Positions 26,566 to 44,370 of a stretch of DNA of 64,000 nt are shown in pieces; position 1 is the stretch's first letter; each line of letters starts with the position of its first letter. The stretch lies in NCBI RefSeq assembly GCF_025147485.1, contig NZ_CP102263.1, positions 3,795,501 to 3,859,500 on the forward strand. The letters run 5' to 3'. Source of the DNA: Bacteroides uniformis. Its GTDB lineage: Bacteria; Bacteroidota; Bacteroidia; Bacteroidales; Bacteroidaceae. The notes under the pieces were generated by a model that worked only from the letters and a program-made list of their open reading frames with translations, had not been told where the DNA came from and ran no database searches. The translations under genes and the position numbers were made by a program.

Positions 26566-27807
26566 CTACAATATACAATTCTTCATTTCATCTACTATGT
26601 ATCTCACATCCTCATCCATCACATAAGGACCGCTCGGCAAGCAAAGACCACGCTTGAACAAGCCCTCACTGACACCATTCACATAGGCAGGATTAGCCGC
26701 ATAAACCGGCTGGAGATGCATGGGCTTCCATAAGGGACGGCTCTCGATACCGGCTTTATCCAAACAAACACGCATGGCCTCCACATTACGGTTAGGCTCA
26801 CAAGAAGTATGGGCATTCACTGACTCATGAGTAACACCCGCAGCACCACCAACGGCACCTTTCACTGTCTCACGGTAGGCATCCTCCTCACCTCTCACAT
26901 GCAGATTCCCGTCAAGCAGTACCGTGTTCAGCCAATAGTTGCTGTCATAACGTCCGGAAGGATTCTCATGAAGCGTGATTCCCTCCACATCGGCCAACAG
27001 CTCACGATACAGACCGCACAGATGCTTATGGTGTGCTATGTGCTCATCCACCACCGTCATCTGGCCGCGACCGATACCCGCACAAATGTTACTCATGCGA
27101 TAGTTATAGCCTATCTTCTCATGCTGATAATAAGGATAAGCCTCACGTGCCTGTGTGGCATAGAACATAACCTCCTTCTTTGCCTCCGCATCCGGACAAA
27201 TCAAGGCACCGCCACCGCTGGTGGTTATCATCTTGTTGCCATTGAAAGACAGCACACCATATTTGCCAAACGTACCACAAACCCGTCCTTTGTACCTACT
27301 GCCGAAACCTTCCGCAGCATCCTCAATCACCGGAATGCCATACTTCTCCGCCACAGCCATTATTTCATCCAACTTGGCTGGCATACCATATAGATAAACC
27401 GGGACAATAGCCTTTGGTTTCTTACCAGTTTTAGCGATGCGGTCTTTGATTGCCGCTTCCAGCAGCTGCGGATCCATATTCCAGGTATCCCCTTCTGAGT
27501 CCACAAACACAGGAGTAGCACCCAGATAAGTCATAGGATGGCTCGATGCGCAAAACGTAAAACTCTGCACCATCACTTCATCACCCTGTCCCACTCCACA
27601 AGCCACCAAAGCCAAGTGTACAGCAGCCGTACCGGCAGACAAAGCCACCACATGCTTATTCTCACCTACAAAAGCCTCCAAATCCTGTTCAAAGCCGCTT
27701 ACGTTCGGACCGAGTGGAACCACCCAGTTCGTATCGAAAGCTTCTTGTATGAAGCCCATCTCCTTGCCGCTCATGTGAGCGAGGCAAAGATAAATTCTCT
27801 TATCCAT
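26566..27807 (-). CDS. DegT/DnrJ/EryC1-family sugar aminotransferase
   Basis: 413 residues. PLP-dependent fold type I enzyme: VIEDAAEGFGSRYKGRVCG carries the Asp contacting PLP, and VLSFNGNKMITTSGGGAL the Lys forming the internal aldimine. The N-terminal LSAGTAAVHLALVACGVGQGDEV is typical. Closest in character to PglE/WlbE-type enzymes that aminate UDP-4-keto-6-deoxy sugars. It is the last gene of the capsule locus, following the PglC-like transferase, a pair often seen together in Bacteroides capsule loci. No dehydratase making the keto-sugar lies in this window, so that step must be encoded elsewhere. The IS66 element begins 14 bases past the stop. Confidence 0.9.
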   Translation of the reverse strand: MDKRIYLCLAHMSGKEMGFIQEAFDTNWVVPLGPNVSGFEQDLEAFVGENKHVVALSAGTAAVHLALVACGVGQGDEVMVQSFTFCASSHPMTYLGATPVFVDSEGDTWNMDPQLLEAAIKDRIAKTGKKPKAIVPVYLYGMPAKLDEIMAVAEKYGIPVIEDAAEGFGSRYKGRVCGTFGKYGVLSFNGNKMITTSGGGALICPDAEAKKEVMFYATQAREAYPYYQHEKIGYNYRMSNICAGIGRGQMTVVDEHIAHHKHLCGLYRELLADVEGITLHENPSGRYDSNYWLNTVLLDGNLHVRGEEDAYRETVKGAVGGAAGVTHESVNAHTSCEPNRNVEAMRVCLDKAGIESRPLWKPMHLQPVYAANPAYVNGVSEGLFKRGLCLPSGPYVMDEDVRYIVDEMKNCIL

Positions 27808-27877
27808 AAAATATATGTGATTATTCTAATGATTCGATTTCCTCACGTAGTGGGGAATAAAAAGGAAAGAAAGGATT

Positions 27878-28468
27878 TTATAAATCTTTCCCAAGCACTG
27901 TGTAAATGATGATTTTGATGTCATTCCAAAAAGACCAACTATCCAAATATTCAATATTTATCCGCACTTTGTCCGGAAACAAAAACTCATCATTATATTT
28001 TTGAGGTTCCTTCTGTTCTGCCAATAATTCTTCCTCGTTCCGATACTTTAAACTTGCGGGGCCGGTAATGCCGGGTTTTAAGAGAAGTATTCTCCGATGC
28101 TCCCCCTCAAGCCTATCAGCATAACCGGGAACATCGGGACGAGGGCCAACGAAACTCATGTCACCAATCAACACATTCCATAACTCCGGCAATTCATCCA
28201 ATTTATATTTCCGGAGTACTGCTCCTAACGGAGTGATACGACTCTCTCCTTTTACAGAAATGGAACTTCCAGAATGGGCGACAGTCATTGAACGGAACTT
28301 ATACATCGTAAACAACCGCCCATATTGTCCAACTCTTTTCTGTTTAAATATGACAGGACCTCCGGGCATCTTGATACGAATCAAAATGCTGATTATAATT
28401 AAAACCGGGAATAAAAAGATTAAACCGAAGAGTGATGCACCACGGTCAAAGAGAGATTTGATAAACAT
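27878..28468 (-). CDS. PglC-like initiating sugar-phosphate transferase
   Basis: 196 residues, the short monotopic form with a single N-terminal reentrant hydrophobic helix (ASLFGLIFLFPVLIIISILI). Motifs: FKQKRVGQYGRLFTMYKFRSM, then ITPLGAVLRKYKLDELPELWNVLIGDMSFVGPRPDVPGYAD with the catalytic DE pair, as in WcaJ/PglC. It transfers a sugar-1-phosphate onto undecaprenyl phosphate and so starts the capsule repeat unit. Likely sugar: a diamino or amino-deoxy sugar, given the neighbouring aminotransferase. The gene is 14 bases from the preceding glycosyltransferase. Confidence 0.92.
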   Translation of the reverse strand: MFIKSLFDRGASLFGLIFLFPVLIIISILIRIKMPGGPVIFKQKRVGQYGRLFTMYKFRSMTVAHSGSSISVKGESRITPLGAVLRKYKLDELPELWNVLIGDMSFVGPRPDVPGYADRLEGEHRRILLLKPGITGPASLKYRNEEELLAEQKEPQKYNDEFLFPDKVRINIEYLDSWSFWNDIKIIIYTVLGKDL

Positions 28469-28482
28469 TCAATCTTGTAAAA

Positions 28483-29289
28483 TTATCTTAAAAACTTATA
28501 AGCAAATTGAGTTACATGAGGGATAGGAATAATAAATATAACAAAACGAGCACAAGCAAATATATAATTCACATATGATAAGTTCAGTTTTCTAATAACA
28601 AGACATCTATTTTTCAAATCAGATAGACTTTTTGATAAACCATTTCTTCTTAAATAAAAATCCTTATTTACACGTACCCGTACCAACACTTCATCTATAT
28701 TGGCAAACTTACATCCTGATAAAAAACCATTTAGCCAAAATATTGTATCTTCATCTTTATCCGTATCAACGGGATATAAACCTGCTTTATGAAAATAAGA
28801 TTTTCTAAAAATAACACTCACATGTGCCAATGGGTTTCTTTTCCCAAAGAAACATTTCATTTCATCATGTGATAGAGGATATCTTATAACCCCTATAGAT
28901 TTTTTGTTTTCATCCATTTCTTCAATATGTCCTCCACATATATCTATATTTTTATGATTGTTCATATAGATTATTTGTTTTTCAAATCTATTTGAAAGAC
29001 AAATATCATCAGCATCCATACGGAGAACGTAATCATACCCTTTAGATAGTACAATAGTTAACAACTCATTCAATGAATATGCCAACCCATAATTTTCATC
29101 TCTACCATAAACATGAAACCGACTATCATTTAACTCCATGAAGAAGTGTTCTATACCACTTTCAACAACTCCATCATATTGAACATAAACATGAAAATCC
29201 TTAAATGTTTGTTTTAGCAAACTGTCAACACATTGTGCTACATATATCAATTTATCATTTTTATAAATCGACATTATTACTGCTACCAT
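28483..29289 (-). CDS. Family 2 glycosyltransferase
   Basis: 268 residues. GT-A fold: AVIMSIYKNDKLIYVAQCVDSLL at the N-terminus and the metal-binding DxD in LRMDADDICLSNRFEKQI. Two acidic motifs downstream (DTDKDEDTIFWLNG) are typical of the E-D region. The C-terminus has a hydrophobic segment that may contact the membrane. AT-rich. It overlaps the end of the TagB-like gene by 29 bases. Confidence 0.9.
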   Translation of the reverse strand: MVAVIMSIYKNDKLIYVAQCVDSLLKQTFKDFHVYVQYDGVVESGIEHFFMELNDSRFHVYGRDENYGLAYSLNELLTIVLSKGYDYVLRMDADDICLSNRFEKQIIYMNNHKNIDICGGHIEEMDENKKSIGVIRYPLSHDEMKCFFGKRNPLAHVSVIFRKSYFHKAGLYPVDTDKDEDTIFWLNGFLSGCKFANIDEVLVRVRVNKDFYLRRNGLSKSLSDLKNRCLVIRKLNLSYVNYIFACARFVIFIIPIPHVTQFAYKFLR

Positions 29290-30527
29290 TATTTATAATA
29301 TAACGAGTTAATACCTTACATGAATTTTGCATCGGAATATCTCCCCAAAATATTTTTTTTATTCTGTTTTGTTCAGTAGTCAAACTATTACCATAATTCC
29401 AATCAGATAATATTTCCATTAATGAATCAAAACTATAGGCTCGAACACCTGGAGTATAATCATCAAAATCAAAAGCCAAATCCCTACATTGACAAATATA
29501 TTTTTCATAATCAAAAGGGAATAAAACAATACCTTTATCCAATAACAAATAATCGTAAAAAATAGAAGAATAGTCTGTTATTAGTAAATCCGTAAATGGT
29601 AATATTGGATAAACATCTACATCCTTATCTAAGAAACGAATGTTAGAAAATATACTTGAAACATTAGATACTACAGTGGCAGGATGTAACTTAAATAAAA
29701 AAAGTTCATCACGTTTCTCCAAAAATCATTCAATAAATCCAAATTAATACCTGAGGCTAACATAAAATCAGATTGGTCATCTCTGAAAGTTGGCATATAA
29801 ATAATAGTATGGGAAAATTCTTGTATATCCTTTATCAGCCTATTAACTCCTTGCGGTTCATATTCTTCTACATATTTCTTTATTAAATTTGCATTTAAAA
29901 AGAATAACTCACATCTAGGATATCCCAAATTAAGACATTTACGTATATCTATTTGAAAGCATTTAGAAAAATGCATTGACATAAACACTGAAGTAGAAAG
30001 GAATAAATCAGGCTTACGAAATAAATAAGGAAATAAAATACGATTAAATATATTTTTTACATATATCTTAGAATCAATGCCAACAGTTGTTGCAAACTCA
30101 ATTTTTTTATTCCAACACCGTGCCATAGATTTACAGCAAAGCATCCTCCCGAAGTCCAATAATTAATATCTGATAAATGAGAAGAAAAAATATAATAGTA
30201 GGATGTCAAACAATGATATAGCCCATATAAACTCCATCTATAATATGCATTAATACCTTTTTCTCTTAATAACAATATTTCCGATTTATTAGAAGATATC
30301 CAAATAGGAATTACTGTTTTCTCATATTTATATAAATATCTATATAAATATTTCACATTGTCCGTAAAACCCACTTTATATCCCAAAACCCATTTTCTCT
30401 TACTTCTTGGAATTAAGTATGAAAGTAACAATAATGGATATCCTAGAAATAAGGAAATTAAACGATATATTATATCAGTATAATTTCTATTACTAAATAC
30501 CCATTTTATAAAATGAAGATTATTCAT
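29261..30527 (-). pseudogene. TagB/TagF-like polyol-phosphate (glycerol/ribitol) transferase, two frameshifts
   Basis: Three overlapping minus-strand frames join into one roughly 420-residue protein of the CDP-glycerol:poly(glycerophosphate) glycerophosphotransferase family. Frame 1 (from 30527) carries the N-terminal part up to NLWHGVGIKK. Frame 2 continues IEFATTVGIDSKIYVKN and contains YPRCELFF and IIYMPTFRDD. Frame 3 carries FLFKLHP and LLITDYSSIFYDYLLL, the family's catalytic signatures. Each break sits in a homopolymer: seven T at 30102-30108 (eight expected) and five A at 29721-29725 (six expected). So the gene is either inactivated or mis-sequenced. It should transfer CDP-activated polyol phosphate onto the lipid-linked glycan. 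Confidence 0.85.
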
Positions 30528-30529
30528 AG

Positions 30530-31906
30530 TCAGTCTGTTTTACGTCTGACATCTATAACTTGTCCCGTCAATCCAGAAAGTAATGTCATTATTGAAGTTT
30601 CTGCAACAAATTGGGGACTTAATAAACTATTTTCCGGTTCTATACCAAAGTTTTGGATACGCATAGGTGTTTTAGTTCTTTCCGGATTAATACAATTAAT
30701 CTTTATATTATAACTTTTCCATTCTTCAGATAAAGCCTGAACTAAATTCACAATTGCAGCTTTTGAAGATGAATATAGGCTATACATCGCTCTGCCTCGT
30801 GTATATGAACTGGAAGTAAATAGTAATAAACCTCCATGAGACTTCGCTAAATATGAGAATGATTCCTTCGCTACATTTATCGCTCCCAAATAATTTACAC
30901 GTATTAAATTTAAAATATCATCATATTTCATTGTCATCAAAGGAATTTTCAATAATATACCTGCTGTATTTATAACGAAATCAATCTTTTTCTCAATCAG
31001 ATATACTTTTTCCAAAGCTTCTTTTACTAATGATGCATCAGCAACATCTGTTCCAGTCTCACTTCGACTAAACGAATAAACCTTAGCTTTCAATCCGGTA
31101 CACAGTTCTGCAATACTATGTCCTATACCATAACTTCCCCCAAAAATGACTATAACTTTATGCTCTAATGCGGTTTCTTGTCCATATAAAGAAACATCAC
31201 TTACAGATTTTAATTGAAAAAGCTTATCCAACAAAAACAAATCTTCTTTATGCGTTAACTTCATATTAAATTTCTCTCCCGGTACAACTCCTATTGGTAT
31301 ATCAGGCATATATTTTAAAACAACCCCACAATCATCGGTTGTTTTAAAATTAGGATCTACCAATGCACGTTTATATGCTTCCCTAATAACGGATAATTTA
31401 AATGCTTGTGGGGTCTGTCCATTGTATAAAAATTGTCGGTTAGGAATATCCTCTATTTCATGCGTATTCAGATTCATTTTGATAATGGTATCTGTTGCAG
31501 GAATTGCAACATCAACAGCTCCATACTTACCCAACATAGTAATACAATCTGATATTATTCTTTTAGTAACTAAGGGACGTACACTATCATGAAATATTAA
31601 ATTAATATCATTCTCTGTAGAAGCATAGGCATTTATAGCTGACAAACTTGAATAATAACGTTCACTTCCTCCTTGTAGAATTCGTCCTACTTTCTTAAAA
31701 TTATTAATGCAACACAATTCCTCCACTTTTTCAAGATAATTAGGGTGTACCACAATTGCAATTTCATCAATAAGCGGATGGTTATCAAATACAGAAATGG
31801 TATGTTCTAAAACTGTTTTTCCCGAAACTTTAAAAAATTGTTTAGGCATTGTCCCTCCCATACGAGTTCCGACACCACCTGCTAAAATTACAGCAACATT
31901 TCTCAT
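30530..31906 (-). CDS. Bifunctional D-ribitol-5-phosphate cytidylyltransferase / SDR reductase (Bcs1-like)
   Basis: 458 residues in two domains. Residues 1-230 are an IspD/TarI-like cytidylyltransferase (VAVILAGGVGTRMGGTMPKQF, FHDSVRPLVTKRII, PATDTIIK). Residues about 245-458 are a short-chain dehydrogenase (VIVIFGGSYGIGHSIAELC, NTAGILLKIP, YSSSKAAIVNL with catalytic Tyr and Lys). The same fusion (Bcs1/Acs1 of Haemophilus influenzae) reduces ribulose-5-phosphate and forms CDP-ribitol; I infer that role here. It abuts the TagB-like gene (2-base gap), so product and user are encoded together. Confidence 0.88.
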   Translation of the reverse strand: MRNVAVILAGGVGTRMGGTMPKQFFKVSGKTVLEHTISVFDNHPLIDEIAIVVHPNYLEKVEELCCINNFKKVGRILQGGSERYYSSLSAINAYASTENDINLIFHDSVRPLVTKRIISDCITMLGKYGAVDVAIPATDTIIKMNLNTHEIEDIPNRQFLYNGQTPQAFKLSVIREAYKRALVDPNFKTTDDCGVVLKYMPDIPIGVVPGEKFNMKLTHKEDLFLLDKLFQLKSVSDVSLYGQETALEHKVIVIFGGSYGIGHSIAELCTGLKAKVYSFSRSETGTDVADASLVKEALEKVYLIEKKIDFVINTAGILLKIPLMTMKYDDILNLIRVNYLGAINVAKESFSYLAKSHGGLLLFTSSSYTRGRAMYSLYSSSKAAIVNLVQALSEEWKSYNIKINCINPERTKTPMRIQNFGIEPENSLLSPQFVAETSIMTLLSGLTGQVIDVRRKTD

Positions 31907-32898
31907 GCTAATTTCTTTATTCTAACTAATAATCCAATTAAAAAATAGTAAACATAAAACATTCTTACCTGTAACCAAGACAAAATCCTCCTCTTAAACC
32001 CTATTACATGGCAAGTACTACAATATAATAAAACTGATTTGTACCTGGAGTCTTGAGTTATAATTCGAGTTATTGAAATAGCTTTCTTATTGAATATGGC
32101 TATTCGAGGATATTTATAACTCACTGCATTAGAAACCCAATCATAAATAATCCAATAAAAAACATCTTTAATAACTGGATATTTATATTTTTCATATATC
32201 ACAAATAATTCATTAACAGTAAACAAAATATCCAAATCCTTTTCTTTTATAGTATTAATAATACTATCGTTACGTCCTATATAATAATTATATAACAATT
32301 CATTTAACACATAAACTCGTGCCCCTTGTATCATACATTGGAAATTGAACAACAAATCTTCATAAACAATTCCCGATTTAAAGTTCAACCCTCTTTGTCG
32401 TAAAAATGATAATTTATATAATCTGTTACAGGCTGATGCGCTAAAGCGATTATTCAGCTTAGCCTGGACCAAATATTCCTTACCATCTAACAGATTATTT
32501 CCCCAATACGCAGGATCTCTAACTTTTTCTATGCAATCCTTTATCAAATATCGACCAAAAACCACTATATCAACCTCAAATCTCTCTATTACTTGCGATA
32601 ACTCATAACATGTATTAGGCTCTATAGAATCATCACTATCTAAAAATAAAACATATTCTCCTGATGCTATATTTAATCCTGTATTACGAGCTTCACTTAA
32701 ACCTTTATTTTTCTGATATATATATTTAATTCTTTCATCAAATAAATAACTTTTTATGATATTATCACTATTATCCGTCGAACCATCGTTTACCAATATA
32801 ATTTCAATGTCCTGAAAAGACTGTTTCATGACACTATCTAAACATCTGTTCAAATATTTTTCAACATTATATATAGGAATGATAATTGAAATAAGCAT
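31903..32898 (-). CDS. Family 2 glycosyltransferase
   Basis: 331 residues. N-terminal GT-A domain with ISIIIPIYNVEKYLNRCLDSVM, VNDGSTDNS and the DxD-like LFLDSDDSIEPNTCYEL. The C-terminal half is rich in aromatic residues and ends in a membrane-associated helix. It overlaps the following gene by 4 bases (ATGA-type junction). The acceptor and sugar cannot be deduced from sequence alone. Confidence 0.92.
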   Translation of the reverse strand: MLISIIIPIYNVEKYLNRCLDSVMKQSFQDIEIILVNDGSTDNSDNIIKSYLFDERIKYIYQKNKGLSEARNTGLNIASGEYVLFLDSDDSIEPNTCYELSQVIERFEVDIVVFGRYLIKDCIEKVRDPAYWGNNLLDGKEYLVQAKLNNRFSASACNRLYKLSFLRQRGLNFKSGIVYEDLLFNFQCMIQGARVYVLNELLYNYYIGRNDSIINTIKEKDLDILFTVNELFVIYEKYKYPVIKDVFYWIIYDWVSNAVSYKYPRIAIFNKKAISITRIITQDSRYKSVLLYCSTCHVIGFKRRILSWLQVRMFYVYYFLIGLLVRIKKLA

Positions 32899-32902
32899 AA
32901 AA

Positions 32903-34285
32903 CTAAATGAATTTTATTTTAAGTTTCGGAACATATAGAATTAAACTATAAAAAAATAAGAATATCAAAATATTTATCAATGAAGGGAAAAATGAAGCAC
33001 GAGGCATATACACTATATTAGGAACTAATATAAAAGCCAAAAACATGATAACACGAGTATTACGAACACTTTTCTCAAAATAACGAATAATATATCCAGC
33101 TAAAAAACTCATTAGTAGAAATCCGATTAATCCCAAATCCCAAAACTCTCCGAGAAAACTAGAACCAACTCCCTCTCCCCCCAAGTATGCATCCGGTGCT
33201 AAAAAATAAGTCAATCGATGTCCTAAACTATTAGTTTGCTCCACAAATTCCATAGATTGACCTTCAAAAGTTGATGTTAAGGATAAAGGATACAAAATAT
33301 ATGGTAATCCAGTATTTACAAATGTTGATTTATAAAATATCATATATGCAAATACTAATAACGAAACCCCTTGTTGAGAAAAAAACATCATAAATAAATC
33401 AGAATCATAACCAGTATCAACGTCCCCCCTCCGGAACTCCAATAATACTTGTGACAGAATAATACACACGATTGAAATCAATAATAATTTGCCTATTTTT
33501 TGTTTTTGTTGTTCAGAATAAAATGAATAATAATACCATAATAAAAATATAATAGGTAAAAATAGTTTAGAACGTCCACCCTTTAAAACATCTGCAATTC
33601 TTAAAGCAAAGAAAATTGACGATATGATAAAGAACTTCTTTTTAGAAGGTTTCGATGCTAAAAATAAGCAATATGAAAATTCAAAAATAGATATTGCTCC
33701 CGTCGTCCATATTGGATATTTCAAATTTGCAATAGTTCCATCATATACAGCTAAATATCCATGCTCCAACACAGCTTTAAACTGAATCAAATATTTAATA
33801 AAAGTACCTGGAACGGAGAATAGAAATAAGAAAGTAGATATTTTATCTAGATACCTCGAATATTCAAAATTTATCTTTCTATAAGACAAATATTTTCTAC
33901 CCATCAAGCATCCAAGATGCATAAATAGCAATGAAAATGTTAACAATATTAATATTTGAAACTGTACGTTTATAGGGAAAATGAAATCATTATATTTATC
34001 TGCCCATGTCCAATTAAACAAACCATAAATATCCAAGAATATACGCGAATAAATAAACACACATAGCATATATAGAAAAAGAACATACAAATTGAATGTT
34101 CCACTTTCATGTATCGCAGAAAAAAGTGACCACAAAAAAATGAGTAACAATTCATATTGTAGTATATTAATTGTTACATCATTATATCCAAATCCAATAC
34201 AAAATAAAAATTGGAGAAAATAGCAAATAATAATAAAAATCTGTATTACTTGAAAAATGGAATATTTCCACGTAAAACTTATCAT
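32903..34285 (-). CDS. Oligosaccharide repeat-unit polymerase (Wzy-like)
   Basis: 460 residues with about eleven hydrophobic segments and a large central loop near residues 300-370, the usual Wzy layout. It has no soluble domain. Sequence is poorly conserved in this family, so the call rests on topology and on position between glycosyltransferases and a flippase. It should join lipid-linked repeat units in the periplasm. The start overlaps the previous gene by 4 bases. Confidence 0.8.
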   Translation of the reverse strand: MISFTWKYSIFQVIQIFIIICYFLQFLFCIGFGYNDVTINILQYELLLIFLWSLFSAIHESGTFNLYVLFLYMLCVFIYSRIFLDIYGLFNWTWADKYNDFIFPINVQFQILILLTFSLLFMHLGCLMGRKYLSYRKINFEYSRYLDKISTFLFLFSVPGTFIKYLIQFKAVLEHGYLAVYDGTIANLKYPIWTTGAISIFEFSYCLFLASKPSKKKFFIISSIFFALRIADVLKGGRSKLFLPIIFLLWYYYSFYSEQQKQKIGKLLLISIVCIILSQVLLEFRRGDVDTGYDSDLFMMFFSQQGVSLLVFAYMIFYKSTFVNTGLPYILYPLSLTSTFEGQSMEFVEQTNSLGHRLTYFLAPDAYLGGEGVGSSFLGEFWDLGLIGFLLMSFLAGYIIRYFEKSVRNTRVIMFLAFILVPNIVYMPRASFFPSLINILIFLFFYSLILYVPKLKIKFI

Positions 34286-35371
34286 CTAAATAAAGTATTA
34301 ACTTTACATATTTGCTGATTCAAATCAAAATCAGATAATCTATGCCTTAATTTAGTGGATATCAACAAAGAATGTTCTGACGCTTTACAAATTGCTTCCG
34401 AAAAAGAATTTATATCCAATGAAGCCACATATCCAAACTCTCCATTACACAATACTTCTTCAGCACCTACACAAGGAGAGGAAACAATATTTCTTTCTAA
34501 AATTAAAGCTTCTATTATTACAGTCGGTAATCCTTCATATAGGGAAGATAAAACAAATACGTCACAGGATTTTATTAAAGGATATGGATTTTCTTTAAAC
34601 CCTAAAAAATGTACATAATCTTGCAATCCCATATCATCTCTCAGTTTTTCCAACTCAACTTGTAAAGGCCCCACCCCTAAAATCCATAATGTAAAATTTC
34701 CCTTGTTCAACAATAAAGGCATACACTCAATCAAAAATCGATGATTTTTACCTTTGTCAATCCTACCTACAGCCAATAAATTTATTCTATCCCGACTAAA
34801 TGGTACATTAATATGTACATTTGATTTTTGTATAATATCAGAAATATCAATAGGATTATATAAAACAATCGATTTATTTTTGACAGCAGGGCATAAATTT
34901 ATCAATGTCTTTTGACAAGCTTTAGAAACACATACTATTTGATTTAAAGAAGGAAGGTCACGAAAATATCTCCGCTTATTAGTTGTTTTACAGTAGGTAT
35001 GCTTTATTAAATCTGTATGTAGCCAAGCCACTCTTTGCGCAGTAGCAGGAGCTTTAAATAAAATTCTGGTAGCAGTATCCTCTCTAAAAGCAATATAACA
35101 ATCGTATAGTTTCCTTATATGAAAGATATAGAACAAGCTAGGAAACGTTAGTAAAATACGTCTCTTAATTTTATTTATTAGCAGATTTGAATCCCCCAAA
35201 GCAGAATATAAACATATATTCCGAGGAACACTATCAAGATAAACACCCTCTCTATTTATTAAAAGATCTACATTATATTTTTTTGCATCAAGATGTTGAA
35301 GTATTGTTATCAATATCCTTTCTGCTCCACCACCTTTCAAATTATCTATAATGAATAAAAGATTTTTTCAT
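34282..35371 (-). CDS. Family 4 glycosyltransferase with N-terminal indels
   Basis: The C-terminal 352 residues are continuous from about 35340. GT-B motifs: LKGGGAERILITILQHL near the N-terminus, VGRIDKGKNHRFLIECMPLL and the C-terminal donor-binding EGLPTVIIEALILERNIVSSPCVGAEEVL. The expected first dozen residues are out of frame. The natural ATG at 35369-35371 overlaps the preceding TGA (ATGA) but is in another frame. Restoring one A in the six-A run next to it and one T about 15 bases later gives MKKIFYFIIDNLKGGGAE, a textbook start. The gene is intact if these indels are base-calling errors. Confidence 0.8.
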
Positions 35372-36254
35372 GACCTACTTTTATCTTTAATATATAATAA
35401 AATTCCTAAGAAACAGGCTATTATAAAAGTCCATCTTCTATTTATAGCTTCTTTATATATATTCCTAAAACTTTTTCCTGCAAATAGACTATAACGCACA
35501 TAACTTGCAGCATTAATAACATAGTTAGTAAATGATAAATTAAAATAATTCCTCTCATTTATATACAGAGCATAACCATTAGATTTCTTAAACACAGATG
35601 TCTGTATTTGCTAGACAGACCATCTCTTTGATAATCTTTTATTTCTAAACTTCGCTTAATACAACATATTTTATATCGCAAAAGAAATTCTATTTAAAAC
35701 CAATGCTTCTGTTACAAAGAATTCATTCTCAAATTCAGGAATGGATATTCTTTCAAAATACGAGTATAATAAATTAACCCTTTATCTCCTTTTACTGACA
35801 ATGAATTGTAAAGGTTATAATGTGAAACAACCAACTCGTCTACAGGTAGCGAAGTTCCTATTAGATTTCCATGTAAATCTAAAGAATTACATGAAAATCC
35901 TGCTATCCAAGGATTATCCTTATGTATCAAATGATATGAATAAATTATTTCTAGTGCAGTTTCAATATAATAATCGTCAGAATCTAAACAAATAAAGATT
36001 TCCCCTTTAGCTATCTGCACTGCTCTATTAAATGCACGATGCTTTCCCCCATTCTCCTGCTTCAAATATACAATGGAAATTTTATTTGTATTTATCCATT
36101 TCTGAACTATTTCTTCTGTATTATCTGTGGAACCATCATCCACAATAATCCATTCAAAACTACGTAATGTTTGTTTACACAAATATTCATAGGTACGTCC
36201 TATAGTATTCGCTCTATTGTAAGTCGGAGTAAATACACTAAAGAGAAATTCCAT
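35368..36254 (-). pseudogene. Family 2 glycosyltransferase with at least three frameshifts
   Basis: Starts normally at 36254 (MEFLFSVFTPTYNRANTIGR), with VDDGSTDNTEEI and the metal site ICLDSDDYY. The frame breaks near 35721 after YTRILKEYPF. The next frame reads PEFENEFFVTEALVLNRISF, another SLEIKDYQRDGLSSKYRHLCL and the last NGYALYINERNYFNLSFTN. These pieces fall in family order, so one roughly 290-residue protein has been broken by small indels near 35721, 35672 and 35583. The N-terminal catalytic part alone is unlikely to work. See the finding on clustered indels. Confidence 0.85.
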
Positions 36255-36864
36255 ATTTTTCCATTAAACAATTAACATCTGAAAAAAGTAAACTATTACT
36301 TCTTATCCATTCCTCATCCATATTCCACCACTTTAATTTTAACAAAAAATCTATTTGATTCTGCTCAAAGCGCATTCTAATACATTTAGCCGGTACTCCA
36401 CCATAAATTGAATAAGGCGGTATATCTTTAGTTACAATAGAATTTGCTCCTATTACTGCACCATCACCAATTGTAACTCCATTTACAATAGTCACATTAG
36501 CACCAATCCATACATCATTTCCAATAGTAACTATAGCAAACTGGTCATACCTATCTTCTAAAAGGAACTTTCCTTTTAAAAATAACCTCGGAGAAGTCGT
36601 AACGTTCTTTTCTACTGGATGATTACCCAAGCCAGCTACGACATTAGGACCTATTGAACAAAACTTTCCTATATGGCAACAATGTATAATAGAGTTATAA
36701 TTTACATATGAATAATCTCCAATAATAGAATTACTGAAAATAACGCGAGCTGAAAAAGAACAATCACAGCCTATAATAGTATTTCCTAATAATTGTACAT
36801 CTCGTCCTATATTGACAGTCCTTCTCCTAAAGAGTCTCATAAACCGATTTATGAAATTCATCAT
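36238..36864 (-). CDS. Left-handed beta-helix (hexapeptide) O-acetyltransferase
   Basis: 208 residues with repeated hexapeptides of the (I/V/L)-G-x-x-x-x type (IIGDYSYVNYNSIIHCCHIG, TIGNDVWIGANVTIVNGV, TIGDGAVIGANSIVTKDI) and the family closing PYSIYGGVPAKCIRMRF. Resembles the CatB/maltose-acetyltransferase group; the conserved His of the catalytic site is probably in GLGNHPVEKN. It should acetylate a sugar of the repeat unit. It overlaps the flippase stop by 4 bases and the next gene by 17. Confidence 0.9.
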   Translation of the reverse strand: MMNFINRFMRLFRRRTVNIGRDVQLLGNTIIGCDCSFSARVIFSNSIIGDYSYVNYNSIIHCCHIGKFCSIGPNVVAGLGNHPVEKNVTTSPRLFLKGKFLLEDRYDQFAIVTIGNDVWIGANVTIVNGVTIGDGAVIGANSIVTKDIPPYSIYGGVPAKCIRMRFEQNQIDFLLKLKWWNMDEEWIRSNSLLFSDVNCLMEKYGISL

Positions 36865-38123
36865 ATTATACCATATTTTTTACAATAATACCATCTCTGT
36901 AAAGTTTCAAAGAAAACAGATATTACCAATGATATAGATAAAGTATATATATTTAAACAATCAATAATTCCCAAAAACATTATTACGAACAAATACACGA
37001 ACATACTATAAAACATATTGACAATAACATCTTTTACATGATTGTGACTTATTAATATAACAGTTCCAAGAAAATAACTTAAATGGCGATATATAAACAG
37101 AGTTCCCAACATCCAATACGCAGGAATTGCCATTAGCATATCATTATTAAAAAATAAAAGAATAAATGATTTCAAAGAACATCCAACAATAAAATATAAT
37201 AAAACTCCTATTACAGTAGTATATATTAAAAGTTTACGGGCAAATATTTTATTAGCATTTTTATTATAATATGGAAATACAACATTACTTATTGTATAAA
37301 ATATAGTAGATAATACATTTACTATTTTTTCTACAAAATCATAATAAGCAACTTCTCCCATTCCCAAAACGCTACCAATAACTATAGTATTAGTCCTATC
37401 TTTCACTATACCTGTTATTGACGTTAAGAGAAGTTTGGTTGAATCTTTTGTATGATAAAATATAGTCGCTAAAGACTGCCATCTAAACTTAATTTTAAAT
37501 TTATATATTAGTATATATATGGCTATAAGAGATGTAATAATAGCTCCAATGCCATTTATAAGTGGAACCAATAAATAATCTTGCGGTGTAGTGACCCATA
37601 TAAATATCAATAGAATAAACACTACACGTCCTATGAAAGAAAAAATTGCAATATATTTCATTTTTTCTATACCTTGAAAAAAACCATATAGGAAATAAAC
37701 ATTCATAAATACATTGCCACATTGAAAAATATATAATAATTTATATTCTCGAATTTCAGGAAAAAGAAATATTAAAAATAAGAATCCAAATACTATAATT
37801 AAAAGCAAGGTTTTTACAATATATACCACACTAACTATTTCGTTTATCTTCTTTGAATCTTCTCTATTAATGCTAATATATTTCGTAGCTGAGATATTAA
37901 ATCCCCAGTTTACAAATATTGCTAAATAACTAACTATTGCCTGAGAATATATGATTACACCATATAAATTTTTTCCTAAAGTATTAATTAAATAAGGATA
38001 TGTAACAAGTGGTATCAATAAATTACATATCTGTAATAAAGTTAGATAGCCAAAATTTTCAATTAAGGTTTTATACCTATATATATAGTCAGATATATTT
38101 TTCACTTTGCAAATTAACATCAT
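36861..38123 (-). CDS. Polysaccharide flippase (Wzx-like, MATE/PST fold)
   Basis: About 420 residues with around twelve hydrophobic segments; the N-terminal LIENFGYLTLLQICNLLIPLVTYPYL (in part) is the typical PST-family start. It moves lipid-linked repeat units across the inner membrane. The frame is open back to a GTG at 38132, but that lies inside the IS66-type end repeat; ATG at 38123 or 38120 is more likely. The IS66 end (GTAAGC at 38125) abuts this start, so the native upstream sequence and ribosome binding site have been lost or replaced. Confidence 0.88.
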   Translation of the reverse strand: MMLICKVKNISDYIYRYKTLIENFGYLTLLQICNLLIPLVTYPYLINTLGKNLYGVIIYSQAIVSYLAIFVNWGFNISATKYISINREDSKKINEIVSVVYIVKTLLLIIVFGFLFLIFLFPEIREYKLLYIFQCGNVFMNVYFLYGFFQGIEKMKYIAIFSFIGRVVFILLIFIWVTTPQDYLLVPLINGIGAIITSLIAIYILIYKFKIKFRWQSLATIFYHTKDSTKLLLTSITGIVKDRTNTIVIGSVLGMGEVAYYDFVEKIVNVLSTIFYTISNVVFPYYNKNANKIFARKLLIYTTVIGVLLYFIVGCSLKSFILLFFNNDMLMAIPAYWMLGTLFIYRHLSYFLGTVILISHNHVKDVIVNMFYSMFVYLFVIMFLGIIDCLNIYTLSISLVISVFFETLQRWYYCKKYGII

Positions 38124-38124
38124 C

Positions 38125-38975
38125 GTAAGCACTCAATCACTTTGGACTCTTCTGAAAATAAGTAAGCAGTCATTTTAGACCTGAAAAGGTTTAAAAGTAA
38201 GCACTCAATACCTTTTTCCCTACTGAAAATCAGCGAGAAAGGGAATTGGTCTTATTATATTTGACTTCGATTTAACTTAATTCAAACCGAAATGCCTGAT
38301 GGAATCAGCATTTCGTAGTTCTTGTTTCCTGACAATAGTTCACGGAATACATGTATAAGATATCCCTTGATATCCGAGAGGTACATCTTGGCCGTTTCGA
38401 TAATGGTATAGAAAGTCATTGCCACATTGACACCCTCCTCACTGCTGAAGTGAAGAGAATTATTTCGCGATACGGCAAAGGGACGTATCGCACGTTCCGC
38501 CACCATGTTGTCTATCGTGTAGTCGCCCCAGTGGTGATATTTAAGCAGGTCATCCCAGCCGTTCAACATATAAGCCAAAGCTGTCTCCATCATTTTACCG
38601 TAGTGACAGCGTTTATCCTGCTGAAGTTCCAATACCTGTTTCCTCAAGCCTTTCAATATCTCACTGACATCGGATTTATTTCTTCTTTTCCTTATCTCCC
38701 CGAGAGTGAGCCGACGCATCAAACATTCAGCCTCTATCAGATACAACCGCCCAATTTGTTCCACAAACCATGCCGCCTCTTCGTCTTTGGCGATGTCTGC
38801 AGCAAGTTTGAACTTTGCCCGGACATGAGAGATGAACTTGGAAACTCCCTCCTTTTGATAGCGTTTCCATAAATTCTTGAAATCCGTGCTGCTTGCCATA
38901 AGCATTCGTTTTATCTTTATGGCACAAAAATCTAGCATACGGGGCGGTAAAGCAAATAAACAATTGAGTGCTTAC
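38125..38975 (-). mobile_element. IS66-family remnant with multiplied ends
   Basis: The left side has three IS66-type end sequences in the same orientation: GTAAGCACTCAATCA at 38125, GTAAGCAGTCATTTT at 38162 and GTAAGCACTCAATAC at 38197. The right side ends with the complement of GTAAGCACTCAATTG at 38975, with a further GTAAGC at 38987. Inside is only the C-terminal third of a transposase. No flanking duplication is visible for any pair. It is best read as a deleted IS66 copy or successive insertions that decayed. It separates upxY/upxZ from the biosynthetic genes. Confidence 0.8.
38282..38938 (-). pseudogene. C-terminal fragment of an IS66 transposase
   Basis: About 200 residues matching the end of IS66 TnpC: FISHVRAKFKLAADIAKDEE, then ERAIRPFAVSRNNSLHF and FRELLSGNKNYEMLIP. 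The N-terminal half (coiled coil and first DDE acid residues) is absent and no tnpA or tnpB accompanies it. The first about 15 residues of the frame are fortuitous. It differs clearly from the TnpC at 23.9-25.7 kb (different wording around the same motif), so it came from another IS66 lineage. Confidence 0.85.
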
Positions 38976-38992
38976 CGTCCATATGGGTAAGC

Positions 38993-39411
38993 AATAATAC
39001 GTTATTTTTTGAATCCGGCACCAACTCTCCCTATCCAAAAAGCGATGCAACGCCATCCGCATCCGGATTTCCTTTACCGAAGGTATCAGCTGGCCGGCAT
39101 TTATATAATTCATAAACTGAGGGACGAGGTCCGAAAGGGAATCTCGTACAGAGTCAGGCATCAGCATGTGCCATTCACCTTTAACATCATCCTCATATGT
39201 CAGCACAAGACCGAACTTCTAGAGTTTATAGGGAGTTTTGCGTATTGCGTACCACGTATGCATTGGCACCGACCGTGACAAACTCCTCAAGCAACTGATG
39301 TTCCGCCTTGCAAAGAGAATTGCAGATGGCAGCAAGGCTGATATTAGAACCGTATTCCTTATTTTTGATGGTAACCATATTTCCAATTTTAGAAAACAAA
39401 ATCTTCCACAA
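38993..39411 (-). pseudogene. Broken hypothetical gene
   Basis: Two frames join into one protein: MVTIKNKEYGSNISLAAICN through VVRNTQNSL, then after a frameshift near 39228 and an in-frame TAG, KFGLVLTYEDDVKGEWHMLM through MRMALHRFLDRE. It then runs into the IS66 remnant, which appears to have truncated its 3' end. I do not recognise the family. It probably predates the insertion and was lost. Confidence 0.55.
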
Positions 39412-40957
39412 TATACCTGTCTACATTACGCCTTTCCTTGCTGAAATTCACCCCCACTTTGACAAGACGCCTCCCGTCCAACCTATAAGGAATCAGATAC
39501 CCTTTTTCGTCAATCTGCCGTAAAGCCTCCTCAGCACTGCCGTTCAGTTTAAACTCAAAAACATAAATGGTATCTTTCGTCTTCACCACGGCATCGGCAC
39601 GACCGCGGGCACTACGGATTTCCGTTTCAACAAATTGTCCCATCAAAGTGAAAACCACATAAAAGATAGCCTGATAGTGACGCTCCGTATTATCGCTCAA
39701 ATCGTATGGCATACCGGCAAAGAATACTTTCAAGCGTTCCATGAATGCATCCACATCACCGGAACGGAGTTCACGCATAAACTTGGCTATGTGGAAACCG
39801 GTTTCATCATCAGTCACTCCTGTATAATAAGGAACCAAGAAATTCAAGAAACCATAGCGTACCTCATCATTGGGAAAACCCAAAGTGTACAATAAAACAT
39901 CCCTATCGTAGTCTTTGATGGTCAGATAACCACTCTGATAAATCATGGGAAGCGGATTCTTTACTTCCGCACGATACTCAAAAAAGGCGGAAGCCGTCAC
40001 TTCAACTCCCTCAATCAGAAGGCGCAAATCATAATCACTCTCTTTCAATAAATTTACCAAATAGGTAGGAGTACCGGTCTGAAACCAGAAATTATCCAAA
40101 ATCTTCGACTTGCATGCATTCAACACACTGAAAGGATTAAAAACCCCTTCACAATGGGGGTAAAAATGATAACCGTCATACAGCTTGGTCATCTGCTCCA
40201 AAGTTGTATCAAAGTCCATTCCATTGGAAACACCCAAACGTTCTATCTCCGGAGTAAACGTTGTGAGCAGTTCTTCCTTAGTAATACCACATAAAGAAGA
40301 ATAGTCGGGCCATGTACTGATGTCCTGCAACTGATTTAAATCACTGAACACGCTAATCTGCGCAAACTTCGTCACACCCGTCAAAAAAACAAAGCGGAGA
40401 TAACGGTCGGCACTTTTCAGTACCCCATAAAAGGCTTTCAATATCCGACGATATTCTTCCGTTAGCTTTTCATCCGAAAGAGCTTGAAGCAAAGGCTTAT
40501 CGTATTCATCAATCAACACTACCACTTGCTTACCCGTCTGGGCATACGCCTGCTCTATCACATAGGCAAAGCGCTCTTCGGGACTACGCTCCTGCTTTTC
40601 CGCACCATATTTCAATTCCCACTTTTCCAGATATTGATTAAGCATGGCTATCAAATCTCCGGCTATTTCATATTTACGGGCATTTAAGTCCATATGTAAT
40701 ACTGGATATTCCTCCCATTGGGTTTCCAGTTTTTCGATGGCAAGTCCGTGAAACAAATCTTTATGTCCTTGAAAGTAAGCTTCGAAGGTAGATATAAGCA
40801 AACTCTTACCGAAACGGCGAGGACGGCTCAAAAAATAGGGAGTGGAATTGGATGCTATCTTATAGACCATTGCTGTTTTGTCTACATAAAGATAATTTTC
40901 TTCACGCAGCTTTTCAAAAGTCTGTATACCAATCGGCAGTTTACGCATCTGTTCCAT
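39389..40957 (-). CDS. AAA-ATPase-like protein with C-terminal PD-(D/E)XK nuclease domain (DUF1703 type)
   Basis: 522 residues. N-terminal AAA-ATPase-like domain: the phosphate-binding loop is FLSRPRRFGKSLLISTFEAYF (in part) and Walker B-like VVLIDEYDKPLLQAL. The C-terminus has the PD-(D/E)XK-like core KTKDTIYVFEFKLNGSAEEAL with an E-x-K. This large family is abundant in Bacteroides and other gut bacteria; its function is unknown to me and it often behaves as a mobile or repeated gene. It lies between upxZ and the biosynthesis genes, on the same strand, an unusual place in a capsule operon. Confidence 0.88.
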   Translation of the reverse strand: MEQMRKLPIGIQTFEKLREENYLYVDKTAMVYKIASNSTPYFLSRPRRFGKSLLISTFEAYFQGHKDLFHGLAIEKLETQWEEYPVLHMDLNARKYEIAGDLIAMLNQYLEKWELKYGAEKQERSPEERFAYVIEQAYAQTGKQVVVLIDEYDKPLLQALSDEKLTEEYRRILKAFYGVLKSADRYLRFVFLTGVTKFAQISVFSDLNQLQDISTWPDYSSLCGITKEELLTTFTPEIERLGVSNGMDFDTTLEQMTKLYDGYHFYPHCEGVFNPFSVLNACKSKILDNFWFQTGTPTYLVNLLKESDYDLRLLIEGVEVTASAFFEYRAEVKNPLPMIYQSGYLTIKDYDRDVLLYTLGFPNDEVRYGFLNFLVPYYTGVTDDETGFHIAKFMRELRSGDVDAFMERLKVFFAGMPYDLSDNTERHYQAIFYVVFTLMGQFVETEIRSARGRADAVVKTKDTIYVFEFKLNGSAEEALRQIDEKGYLIPYRLDGRRLVKVGVNFSKERRNVDRYIVEDFVF

Positions 40958-41030: not shown

Positions 41031-41516
41031 TTATTCCATTTCCTCCCATGGATAAGGATTATCCACCACATTCTGAAACTCATCAACTGCTTCCTGCTGC
41101 TCGGCAGTCAGTGATGCAACACTCCAAGAAGCAATGATAGAACGGCCCTCGTCGGCCAAAGGCTCATCGAAAACCTCTCCATAACAAGCCGTAAGCAAAC
41201 GGAGTTTCAACAAAGAGGAAGGAAGGGAATCAAGGGTATCCCAGCAACGCCTCAATACCTCCTGCACATGCTGCTGTTTCTCACCATGGTCAATGAACGA
41301 GGCACTATACCCCTTCAAGAGCGCAAGACATACATTTGCCTGCTCCTCCACCGTGGTGCCCCAAGTGCCAGAATTATACAAAGTTGTGGTCAAGCGATAG
41401 ACTTCGCTGTTACGACGAGACAAGTCATCGCTATAGATAGGACTGCCGTCCATACCCAAATACATCAGATCGTGCGCGGCACGCTGAAGGAGGAGTGCTT
41501 CTTCTAAAAGAGACAT
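41031..41516 (-). CDS. upxZ: UpxZ-family inhibitor of non-cognate UpxY antiterminators
   Basis: 161 residues, second gene after upxY, as in B. fragilis capsule loci. Features of the family: LLEEALLLQRAAHDLMYLGMD, an SRRNSEVYRL segment, and the C-terminal DEFQNVVDNPYPWEE. In B. fragilis, UpxZ proteins block UpxY proteins of other capsule loci so that one capsule is made at a time; the same is expected here. The family call rests on size, position and remembered sequence features. Confidence 0.85.
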   Translation of the reverse strand: MSLLEEALLLQRAAHDLMYLGMDGSPIYSDDLSRRNSEVYRLTTTLYNSGTWGTTVEEQANVCLALLKGYSASFIDHGEKQQHVQEVLRRCWDTLDSLPSSLLKLRLLTACYGEVFDEPLADEGRSIIASWSVASLTAEQQEAVDEFQNVVDNPYPWEEME

Positions 41517-41586: not shown

Positions 41587-42117
41587 TTATTTGATTACTT
41601 CGATGAGGTCTGGATGGATGGTCGCCATGGCAACGGCGATGATACCTTGTATAGCAATCACTACACGACGATCACGGGCACCTTTTACCTTTAGAAAAAC
41701 ACCTTCTTGACCCTCGAAGTCGCCACCGGTGATACGGACTTTCGTACCTTTGGAGAGATTCAGTTCTTCGGGCTGGAAATAGAGAAGATGGTCATTGTAG
41801 GTACCAGCAACGGCTATGAAACGCTGCATATCATGGTCAGGAATGACTATTTTCTGACCGCTACGGGTATCAGTAATATATTGCAAATAAGTAATTTGAG
41901 ACTTAAATCGCTGCACTTCGGAAGGACGTGCGTGGACAAAAACCAGGTTACGGATGACGGGAACCAAAGCACGGACTTTCCTGCCCCTACGGATACTTAT
42001 CTTATATTGCATGGGAATGAAACAGCCAAGATTTGCCTTTTCGAGAAGATGCATAGCTTCAAGCTCCCTGCGGTATGTAGCACGCATGGCAAACCAAACT
42101 TCGGTCTCTTTATCCAT
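41587..42117 (-). CDS. upxY: UpxY-family capsule transcription antiterminator (NusG paralogue)
   Basis: 176 residues. N-terminal NGN domain (VWFAMRATYRRELEAMHLLE and NLVFVHARPSEVQRFK) and C-terminal KOW-like domain (GTKVRITGGDFEGQEGVFLK). It is first in the capsule operon, as in Bacteroides capsule loci, where UpxY acts on its own 5' leader to let polymerase read through. 42118-42320 would be that leader; it contains two hairpins. The only strong promoter upstream points the other way in this assembly. Confidence 0.93.
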   Translation of the reverse strand: MDKETEVWFAMRATYRRELEAMHLLEKANLGCFIPMQYKISIRRGRKVRALVPVIRNLVFVHARPSEVQRFKSQITYLQYITDTRSGQKIVIPDHDMQRFIAVAGTYNDHLLYFQPEELNLSKGTKVRITGGDFEGQEGVFLKVKGARDRRVVIAIQGIIAVAMATIHPDLIEVIK

Positions 42118-42318
42118 TTCTATTCTTGTTAATTTTACTTAGAAAAAGGTATTCCTTGGGGGCTTTGAACTACTATTACAGAACTGTAGTTCAATCACTT
42201 GCGAGCATTTTATGGGAAGTTTGACAAGCACTATGCCCTTCTTGTCAACAGATTCTCTGCGGTTGTTCATTACCTTTTGGTAAGAGACTATAAACGAACG
42301 TATTAGAAACAAAAAAGC
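42118..42318 (-). promoter_or_regulatory. Putative capsule mRNA leader with two hairpins (UpxY target region)
   Basis: Two perfect stems: 42165-42173 with 42186-42194 (9 bp, 12-base loop) and 42221-42228 with 42241-42248 (8 bp, 12-base loop). They would lie in the untranslated leader of upxY if transcription came from the flipped promoter. In B. fragilis the leader is the site where UpxY prevents premature termination. No long T-run follows on the minus strand, so they are not simple intrinsic terminators. Confidence 0.5.
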
Positions 42319-42546
42319 GTTTTTTAATCGTACGTTTAAAAAACACCTATTTCGAACTTATACAAGACATACTCAAAGAGCTAAAAATAAGAAGATTTTA
42401 ACTGATTACACATATTGCATATACTGCTGAAATTCAATGTAATATACTTATCATTATTTATTATTAGGAACATTTTTCTATCAAACATTTTGCCATTACA
42501 AAAAACGTCTCTATCTTTGCGTTCATTAAACGTACGTTTTTTAAAC
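42319..42546. promoter_or_regulatory. Putative invertible capsule promoter, OFF orientation
   Basis: Imperfect inverted repeats at 42319-42345 and 42520-42546 (20 of 27 positions match, with an uninterrupted 11-bp core CGTACGTTTAA at 42329-42339 and its complement at 42526-42536) enclose a promoter. TTTG (42489-42492), a 19-base spacer, then TATCTTTG (42512-42519) point rightward, away from upxY. Core-to-core length is 208 bp, in the range known for the Mpi-controlled promoters of B. fragilis. After inversion the -7 element would lie at about 42353-42346 on the minus strand, giving a leader of about 220 bases before upxY. Confidence 0.75.
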
Positions 42547-42737: not shown

Positions 42738-43097
42738 ATGTCGTATCAATCTGATACACAGAAACTAAGAGCAACAAAAGTAAAAGAACACAGCTCCATA
42801 GTGGATGAAAAGCTATTGGCAGAACGGGTTTACTACGGAGACCAGACCCATGTTTATGTAGGTTACTTAAGAGCCTTTAAATCAGGCTATTTTGAAGGCA
42901 CAAAAATTAGAAAAATAACGGATATAGCCAAACTGCTCGTAGCATCCGAAAACTTCACAAAGAAAGCCAGAGGAGAGCAAAAGCCTTTGACTTACAGTAC
43001 GATAATTACCGAATTGGAGAAGGTATGGGCCATCATAAAACAGGAAGACACCACACTGATTGACCCATACGGATATGATGTAAGGATAAATCACTGA
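42738..43097 (+). CDS. Hypothetical protein, 119 residues
   Basis: Starts MSYQSDTQKLRATKVKEHSS and is rich in K, E, T and Y; predicted mixed alpha/beta, no signal peptide and no membrane segment. I do not recognise a family. It is the first gene to the right of the capsule promoter region, on the opposite strand to the capsule operon. In the present orientation the invertible promoter would read into it. Confidence 0.65.
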   Translation: MSYQSDTQKLRATKVKEHSSIVDEKLLAERVYYGDQTHVYVGYLRAFKSGYFEGTKIRKITDIAKLLVASENFTKKARGEQKPLTYSTIITELEKVWAIIKQEDTTLIDPYGYDVRINH

Positions 43098-43100
43098 TAG

Positions 43101-43217
43101 TTCAGTACCTGGAAAGGCAGTAATTTTGCCGCCGTCAGCAACCGGACAGAAGGGCTACACCTTTCTCGTCGGATGGTGTAGCCTCAACAAGGCAAGGGCG
43201 TAGCCATCCGTACTGAA
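43101..43217 (+). ncRNA. Structured intergenic element of unknown class
   Basis: A closing stem TTCAGTAC (43101-43108) pairs with GTACTGAA (43210-43217). Inside is a perfect 9-bp hairpin GGCTACACC (43153-43161) with GGTGTAGCC (43175-43183), extendable by a G.T pair, and a small GGCA/TGCC hairpin before it. The segment is GC-rich compared with its surroundings, which suggests structural constraint. It lies between two small hypothetical genes. It fits no riboswitch I know. Confidence 0.45.
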
Positions 43218-43277
43218 AGGAGTAGCTCTTTTTCATTGCTGATTATCATACATTTAATAACCCTAAAAACATAAAAA

Positions 43278-43643
43278 ATGGGAAAAGAGAAAACTGAATT
43301 TGAGGAGCAATTTGTATCCAAAACAGAAAAAACAAAAAAACTATGGGAAAAACGGATTACGGAAAACACGACATTGAGCATGGAGTCTGTACAATGGATG
43401 GCACAGCGCATAAATTCCCTACTGGAATACATGCAATACGGATATGCATTGATAGCCTACCGAAAGCAGGACGGTAGCTTCTACATGGGAAGAGGAACCC
43501 TTGTTTCCTACGAAAGCGACTTCAAAAAGAAACATGACATGACAAGCATTAAAGCTCACGTAGCCTATTGGGACGCGGAACAACAAGGCTGGCGGACTTT
43601 TCTGATTGAGAACTTTATGGAATGGAGACCGATAGTAAACTAA
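43278..43643 (+). CDS. Hypothetical protein, 121 residues, possible SH3-like C-terminus
   Basis: Lysine- and glutamate-rich N-terminus (MGKEKTEFEEQFVSKTEKTK) followed by YALIAYRKQDGSFYMGRGTLV and a C-terminal YWDAEQQGWRTFLIENFMEW. This last pattern resembles Bacteroides DUF2693-like proteins (a tyrosine-aspartate then W-R-S/T-F-x-x-E-N-L), but the similarity is weak and I claim no function. It lies between the structured element and the DUF4373 gene. Confidence 0.6.
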   Translation: MGKEKTEFEEQFVSKTEKTKKLWEKRITENTTLSMESVQWMAQRINSLLEYMQYGYALIAYRKQDGSFYMGRGTLVSYESDFKKKHDMTSIKAHVAYWDAEQQGWRTFLIENFMEWRPIVN

Positions 43644-43668
43644 CAAAAAAACACCAATATCAAAAGCT

Positions 43669-44370
43669 ATGGAGGCTTATTTACTACATGATGCCAATGC
43701 CGGCAGCAACCTAAAATTAATGATTATGATACAAGAAGAAGGTATGAAAGGATATGGCATTTACTGGACAGTGCTCGAATTCCTCAGATTGCAGAACGAA
43801 TATAAAGCCAGCCTGAAAGTGATTCCCATACTGGCACAAAAAGCAAGGGTGACAACCGCCACACTGAAGCGAATCATCTATGACTATGCGCTGTTCGAGG
43901 TGAACGAGACAAGCTTCTCATCCCCCGGACTAAGCCGCCGCATGGAGCCATGGGACGCCCAACAAGAAGCTAAAAAAGAGGCCGGACGTCGCGGTGGACT
44001 GGTTAACCAGCAGAGAATCAGGGATGCCAAGACAAGCAGCGCTTTAGCAAATAAACTAAATAAAGAGAATAAAGAAAACCCCTCTCTATCTCCCCAAGGG
44101 GAGACGGGAAGAAGGAAGGAGGAGATTCTTCTGACTCCACCGGAGTACACGCTCAACAGACAGACGCATAATTACCAAGGCCTGATGGAAGAGCTGGCAA
44201 GGCAGAAAGTAACCGACATCCACGATTTGAATGCCATCTTGAGACTGACAGATTTTGGAAAACTGGGAGGGAAAATCTGGAAAATCCTATATGAGTTGAA
44301 CAGCTCACCCCAACTGAAAGCCCGTATCGTGATGCCCGGAAAGTACATACTGAAATTACTCAGGGGTTAG
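43669..44370 (+). CDS. DUF4373 (Lin1244/Lin1753-like) domain protein
   Basis: 233 residues. The first about 95 residues match the Lin1244/Lin1753-type domain (MEAYLLHDANAGSNLKLMIMIQEEGMKGYGIYW in part), predicted to be a winged helix found in phage and plasmid replication-type proteins. A lysine-rich linker and a helical C-terminus follow. Such proteins are often found beside Bacteroides capsule loci. Its cellular role is not established. The IS1595 element begins 15 bases after its stop codon. Confidence 0.75.
   Translation: MEAYLLHDANAGSNLKLMIMIQEEGMKGYGIYWTVLEFLRLQNEYKASLKVIPILAQKARVTTATLKRIIYDYALFEVNETSFSSPGLSRRMEPWDAQQEAKKEAGRRGGLVNQQRIRDAKTSSALANKLNKENKENPSLSPQGETGRRKEEILLTPPEYTLNRQTHNYQGLMEELARQKVTDIHDLNAILRLTDFGKLGGKIWKILYELNSSPQLKARIVMPGKYILKLLRG

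Follow-up and report, generated by a model that had tools for sequence, protein, structure and literature searches.

The intergenic region upstream of upxY in the analysed stretch of Bacteroides uniformis DNA (64,000 nucleotides, here called the window) contains an element that very probably serves a phase-variable capsule operon as its Mpi-type invertible promoter. A Bacteroides promoter lies between two recombination sites and is directed away from upxY, an Mpi gene is present in the same genome, and elements of this class were found in both orientations among relatives. Both sites have the central dinucleotide TA.

Recombination sites and promoter

The element occupies a 620-bp intergenic region between upxY (- strand) and a divergent ORF (+ strand). 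Two recombination sites, neither assigned to a strand, were located at 42319-42344 (proximal, on the upxY side; core CGTACG at 42329-42334) and at 42521-42546 (distal; core CGTACG at 42531-42536). The half-sites of both are those of CGTTCG sites of the class. The segment between the cores (42335-42530, likewise without strand) is 196 bp long and occurs in both orientations among relatives. It contains a promoter of the form TTTG-N19-TATCTTTG on the + strand at 42489-42519 (TTTG at 42489-42492, a spacer of 19 bases, TATCTTTG at 42512-42519), and a first-pass annotation of this DNA had given the same coordinates and direction. A sigma-70 scan performed no better than shuffles (4 found, shuffle mean 2.9).

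The first-pass annotation had also described inverted repeats with an 11-bp core over 208 bp. The pair was found again, with CGTACGTTTAA at 42329-42339 (+) and 42526-42536 (-) and an outer-edge span of 208 bp; the arms are 26 nt each and 77% complementary (20/26). The description as inverted stood less well. The core CGTACG is a palindrome and the arm stretches also match as direct repeats (29 nt, 79%), so that the sequence by itself cannot say 'inverted'.

Chance levels were estimated on shuffles of the 620-bp intergenic region. Of 150 dinucleotide shuffles, 1 had an inverted arm match as good as 20/26 at a distance of 100-350 bp; an exact inverted 11-mer pair arose in 75/1000 shuffles and the exact promoter pattern in 10/1000. 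Given these rates the window sequence taken alone is suggestive only. Comparison across genus genomes is judged decisive for the reality of the element.

upx operon and neighbouring genes

The element was reported to lie just before upxY-upxZ, and family models agreed. upxY (41587-42117, -) encodes a NusG-like antiterminator (NF033644, 169.9 bits, cut-off 100; PF02357) and is followed by upxZ (41031-41516, -; PF06603, 146.6 bits). Capsule genes lie at 26566-38132 (-) and encode a flippase, Wzy, glycosyltransferases, a sugar transferase and a DegT-type aminotransferase (Pfam, nine proteins scanned). The order is that of a upx operon, upxY and upxZ first and polysaccharide genes after, with two interruptions: upxZ and the capsule genes are separated by a gene for a predicted AAA-ATPase with a PD-(D/E)XK nuclease domain (39389-40957, -; PF09820, PF08011), and part of an IS66 transposase lies inside the operon (38282-38938, -; PF03050). 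The ATPase stretch (within 38282-40957) also aligns in the B. muris locus L088.

The divergent ORF (42738-43097, +; 119 aa, no family assigned) is the one now faced by the promoter. The stretch 42738-44370 comprises this ORF, a WYL_2 gene and a Lin1244_N gene. Relatives of the WYL_2 gene also adjoin other upx loci (L132, L029, L149 and L150). In L088/L162 the WYL_2 and Lin1244 genes are seemingly shortened.

The window genome has a further upxY-like gene (L136, G000:C1:3451023-3451532), with a promoter facing the gene. Mpi sites and a UpxZ match were not found at that locus, which is possibly that of a capsule that is always on.

Genus-wide class and recombinase

Pairs of sites were searched for in 158 genus genomes with patterns that demand exact cores, fixed inner bases and a set distance, and diverged pairs escape such patterns. 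CGTACG pairs numbered 11, in 9/158 genomes, and the backward-pattern control gave 0. A promoter was present inside 10/11 of them, with cores spaced 200-203 bp apart; at the exception (L159) the promoter pattern was absent and the cores were 189 bp apart. Standard CGTTCG pairs numbered at least 97 (own sum) in 26/158 genomes, with 0 in the control. The window genome has five pairs of sites, one of the CGTACG type and four of the CGTTCG type, each ahead of a upxY-upxZ pair. Core spacing at these five invertible upx loci is 201-202 bp, and all five are OFF in the assembly.

A PF00239 search of the window genome (a single contig of 4,629,452 bases) returned one protein only, an Mpi-family invertase of 197 aa (NF009949, 279.6 bits, cut-off 272) encoded at 4,049,734-4,050,324, ~212 kb from the element. 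The first-pass annotation had seen no recombinase in the window and had proposed looking for an Mpi-type serine recombinase elsewhere in the genome, where it was indeed located. Mpi orthologues (at least 63% identity) occur in 27/158 genomes. These are all 26 genomes with CGTTCG pairs, among which lie the nine CGTACG genomes, and G083. The orthologue of G083 (80%) was found together with no CGTTCG or CGTACG pair by the patterns used. From the co-occurrence of gene and sites we infer that one and the same Mpi probably acts on both site types.

It is improbable that the promoter is turned by some other enzyme, for example a tyrosine recombinase. B. fragilis does have further master invertases, Tsr0667 and Tsr19 (named in the excerpted text of PMC4747536), but the half-sites of the window element are like those of CGTTCG elements, which are accompanied by Mpi in 26/26 genomes, and a matched 2-bp centre, as described below, is what a serine recombinase predicts (by a rule in an excerpt of PMC11607074).

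With Mpi as the likely enzyme, a dimer of the serine invertase would bind each 26-bp site, and the two sites would then be paired. Cutting at the central TA of CGTACG, rotation and rejoining would turn the 196-bp segment. The sequenced state, with the promoter directed away from upxY, is OFF. In the turned state transcription would start in the proximal arm and run through a leader of ~223 nt (own arithmetic) into upxY, close to the ~220 bases predicted in the first-pass annotation. Expression of a capsule might follow, provided that the operon still makes one with an ATPase gene and an IS66 piece inside it.

Orientation in related genomes

Loci L154 (G014) and L156 (G058) have the same CGTACG core. 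Their 1-kb flanks are 98.6% and 96.8% identical, and their middles are 92% identical when one is inverted and 51% when both are read straight, which makes them one orthologous locus in opposite orientations. The orientation of L153 (G054) is that of L156. The L154/L156 locus precedes a gene resembling a polysaccharide export protein (judged by eye). A second comparison among CGTACG elements gave L152 (G053) as ON and L155 (G056) as OFF, with upxY-side flanks 90% alike over 677 bp. A close relative of the window element is L158 (G112), the middle of which is 82% identical inverted (162 of 197) and 53% straight. Its upxY-side flank is 78% like that of the window over 185 bp and the leader motif described below lies on the same side; its distal flank is without match to the window (49%), and upxY is beyond the available sequence. 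L158 was called ON because of the flank homology and the leader motif on that side.

These relatives bear on the possibility that the divergent genes, from ORF 42738-43097 onward, are served by a fixed promoter and that the repeats are without significance. As sequenced, the promoter does face the divergent ORF, the start of which is ~219 bp on, and a scan found no terminator-like site between the two. However, L158 has the segment turned with respect to its upxY side, L088/L162 keep sites and promoter next to a broken divergent ORF (the ORF is intact in L157), and CGTTCG and CGTACG pairs at such spacing form a genus-wide class. A fixed divergent promoter was rejected on the inverted L158 and the broken ORF, and its probability is very slight.

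The closest named match to the window upxY was that of B. muris NM69_E16B (L088), at 96%. A second strain of the window species was not found; B. muris was the nearest (records of the window genome were possibly left out). L162 (G070), apparently the same as the B. muris locus L088, has a middle 97% identical to that of the window and is OFF likewise, as is L157 (G070), with a middle 80% identical.

States were assigned to 61 distinct elements in the fetched loci, 11 of which were without upxY in reach. TT-centred elements with upxY in reach were 38 OFF, 6 ON and 1 unclear, and those with a TA centre were 4 OFF, the window element among them, and 1 ON, in loci that were gathered by several routes, some of them related, with UpxY matches from two query proteins. 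Assemblies thus show OFF more often than ON.

An Mpi-type promoter locked OFF, its TA-centred sites having lost the ability to recombine in this lineage, would account for the OFF state of the window genome, of B. muris (L088, L162; 97% middles) and of the related L157. We consider this unlikely. L158 (82% alike) and L152 are both TA-centred and ON, the TA-centred L154 and L156 differ by inversion, and the excess of OFF is seen among TT elements too. An active switch is favoured, and the proposal of a phase-variable promoter, first made from size, core and position, is strengthened by membership of the Mpi-type family and by same-core relatives in both orientations. The turned state was observed among relatives, and the window strain itself probably inverts the segment in the same way. 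The comparison with related strains suggested in the first-pass annotation, made here with related genomes, gave L158 ON, L154 and L156 inverted relative to each other, and the B. muris orthologue OFF like the window.

Separately, one genome carries two upx loci, L145 and L146 (G022:C11), whose arms are the same and whose segments lie in opposite orientations, one ON and the other OFF. Their inner half-sites are exchanged.

Core centre and crossover groups

The window core had been likened to the repeats of Mpi promoters. This held for the outer half-sites, which agree with the CGTTCG class, and did not hold for the centre, which is TA where the consensus ARACGTTCGTN, as quoted in the excerpted text of PMC8375218, covers TT only; two inverted ARACGTTCGTN sites were accordingly not found, both window cores being CGTACG, and kinship of function is argued from the other features. 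In literature searches for a TA core, ACGTACGT was not found among the matches listed, and no absence from print is claimed; among the matches listed in another search CGTTCGT appears in PMC8375218, and those of a third were, by title, not about Bacteroides promoters.

The central 2 bp are identical in the two window sites (TA/TA). Local pairs were then picked by CGNNCG and outer bases with the centre ignored, and the central dinucleotide was common to both arms in 55/55 (45 TT, 10 TA). In this set 25/55 pairs come from loci retrieved with patterns in which matched centres were a requirement; the 30 pairs independent of such patterns (28 TT, 2 TA) had matching centres in 30/30. Outer positions differ between arms in up to 24/52 promoter-bearing pairs. 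A search for mixed centres, covering TT with TA and TT with AA, found one pair in 158 genomes (in G090, which is without any matched pair), and the backward control also gave one. On a tree of 56 segments with clear promoter direction (46 TT, 10 TA) the TA label needs four changes, at least 3/4 of them on well-supported branches, in a tree that is uncertain and has several long rows. Because the centres match in the local pairs and the TA label changes repeatedly on the tree, both arms seem to change centre together.

When two sites of a serine recombinase differ in the central 2 bp, at most traces of recombinants are formed (from an excerpt of PMC11607074). A matched 2-bp centre is thus the serine-recombinase expectation, and such a centre agrees with crossover taking place there, which would probably be the point of cutting in the window element. 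Recombination of a TA promoter with TT promoters is then not to be expected, and the distribution of centres suggests two crossover groups run by one enzyme. A TA overlap is palindromic and so cannot dictate inversion, though relatives show inversion.

A more general model is proposed tentatively, as one that may well prove wrong. One master invertase would serve two mutually incompatible promoter groups, set apart by nothing but their 2-bp crossover, TT in one and TA in the other. Promoters would move from one group to the other when both arms change jointly, a TA promoter would so be kept from recombining with TT promoters elsewhere on the chromosome, and inversion rather than deletion would have to be decided outside the overlap, for example by the outer half-sites or by synapse shape.

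Conserved leader motif

A conserved motif, AATNNNTTCGTTTATAGNNNNTTA, lies in the leader at 42281-42304 (-) and matches at 17/17 in the window. It scored at least 12/17 on the upxY side in 48/50 upxY-linked elements, and in 47/48 of these its distance to the proximal core was 29-31 bp. The consensus was built from 32 of the scored loci, which makes the scores partly circular, and the far side and non-upx elements served as controls. On the far side a score of 12 was reached in 2/50 elements and never exceeded. It was missing (at most 10/17) from seven Mpi-type elements that have no upxY within reach (L052, L153, L154, L156, L159, L181 and L182), and four others without upxY in reach carry the motif at 15-17 (L157, L158, L175 and L185). 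At L136, the upxY locus without Mpi sites, the best match was 14/17, and 20 shuffles reached no more than 12. At most of the other upxY loci that lack Mpi sites the motif scored no better than in their own shuffles.

UpxY proteins prevent early termination within such leaders (excerpted text of PMC7819879). Within the transcribed leader, the motif is a candidate element for the recruitment of UpxY, by analogy with ops for RfaH. A role as a third recombinase site was rejected, the motif being missing at seven Mpi-type elements and present at 14/17 at the site-less L136. The leader motif, the departure of the TA centre from the consensus and the palindromic nature of the core are not noted in the first-pass annotation.

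Comparison with known systems

The finding gives a Bacteroides genome one more probable phase-variable capsule locus and reveals a second class of Mpi-type sites, outside the quoted consensus. If one enzyme does run two crossover groups, a cell could place many promoters under a single switch while its chromosome is less at risk of being scrambled. With TA sites, the features that lead Mpi to invert and not to delete can be tested directly.

Serine invertases of the Hin/Gin type act as dimers at sites with a central 2-bp overlap. The requirement for a match in the central overlap (rule taken from the excerpt of PMC11607074) is common to them and to the window element. Unlike the Hin/Gin type, Mpi serves many distant promoters.

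In B. intestinalis, the invertible capsule promoters PVR7-12 are segments of 183-186 bp flanked by inverted repeats GTTCGTTTAA and placed ahead of capsule operons, transcription starts inside the proximal repeat and Mpi homologues are present in the genome (excerpted text of PMC8375218). Those sites have a TT centre and their inversion was measured, whereas the window element has a TA centre and its inversion is predicted from relatives. With the Mpi promoters of B. fragilis (Coyne 2003, as quoted in excerpts of PMC8375218 and PMC4747536) the element shares a distantly encoded serine master invertase, a short invertible promoter that precedes a upxY-type gene, and sites near ARACGTTCGTN. It differs in that the quoted consensus has TT, whereas the window sites both have TA and a palindromic core. 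The element probably works like an Mpi-controlled capsule promoter and, by the strict consensus, is a variant with a TA centre.
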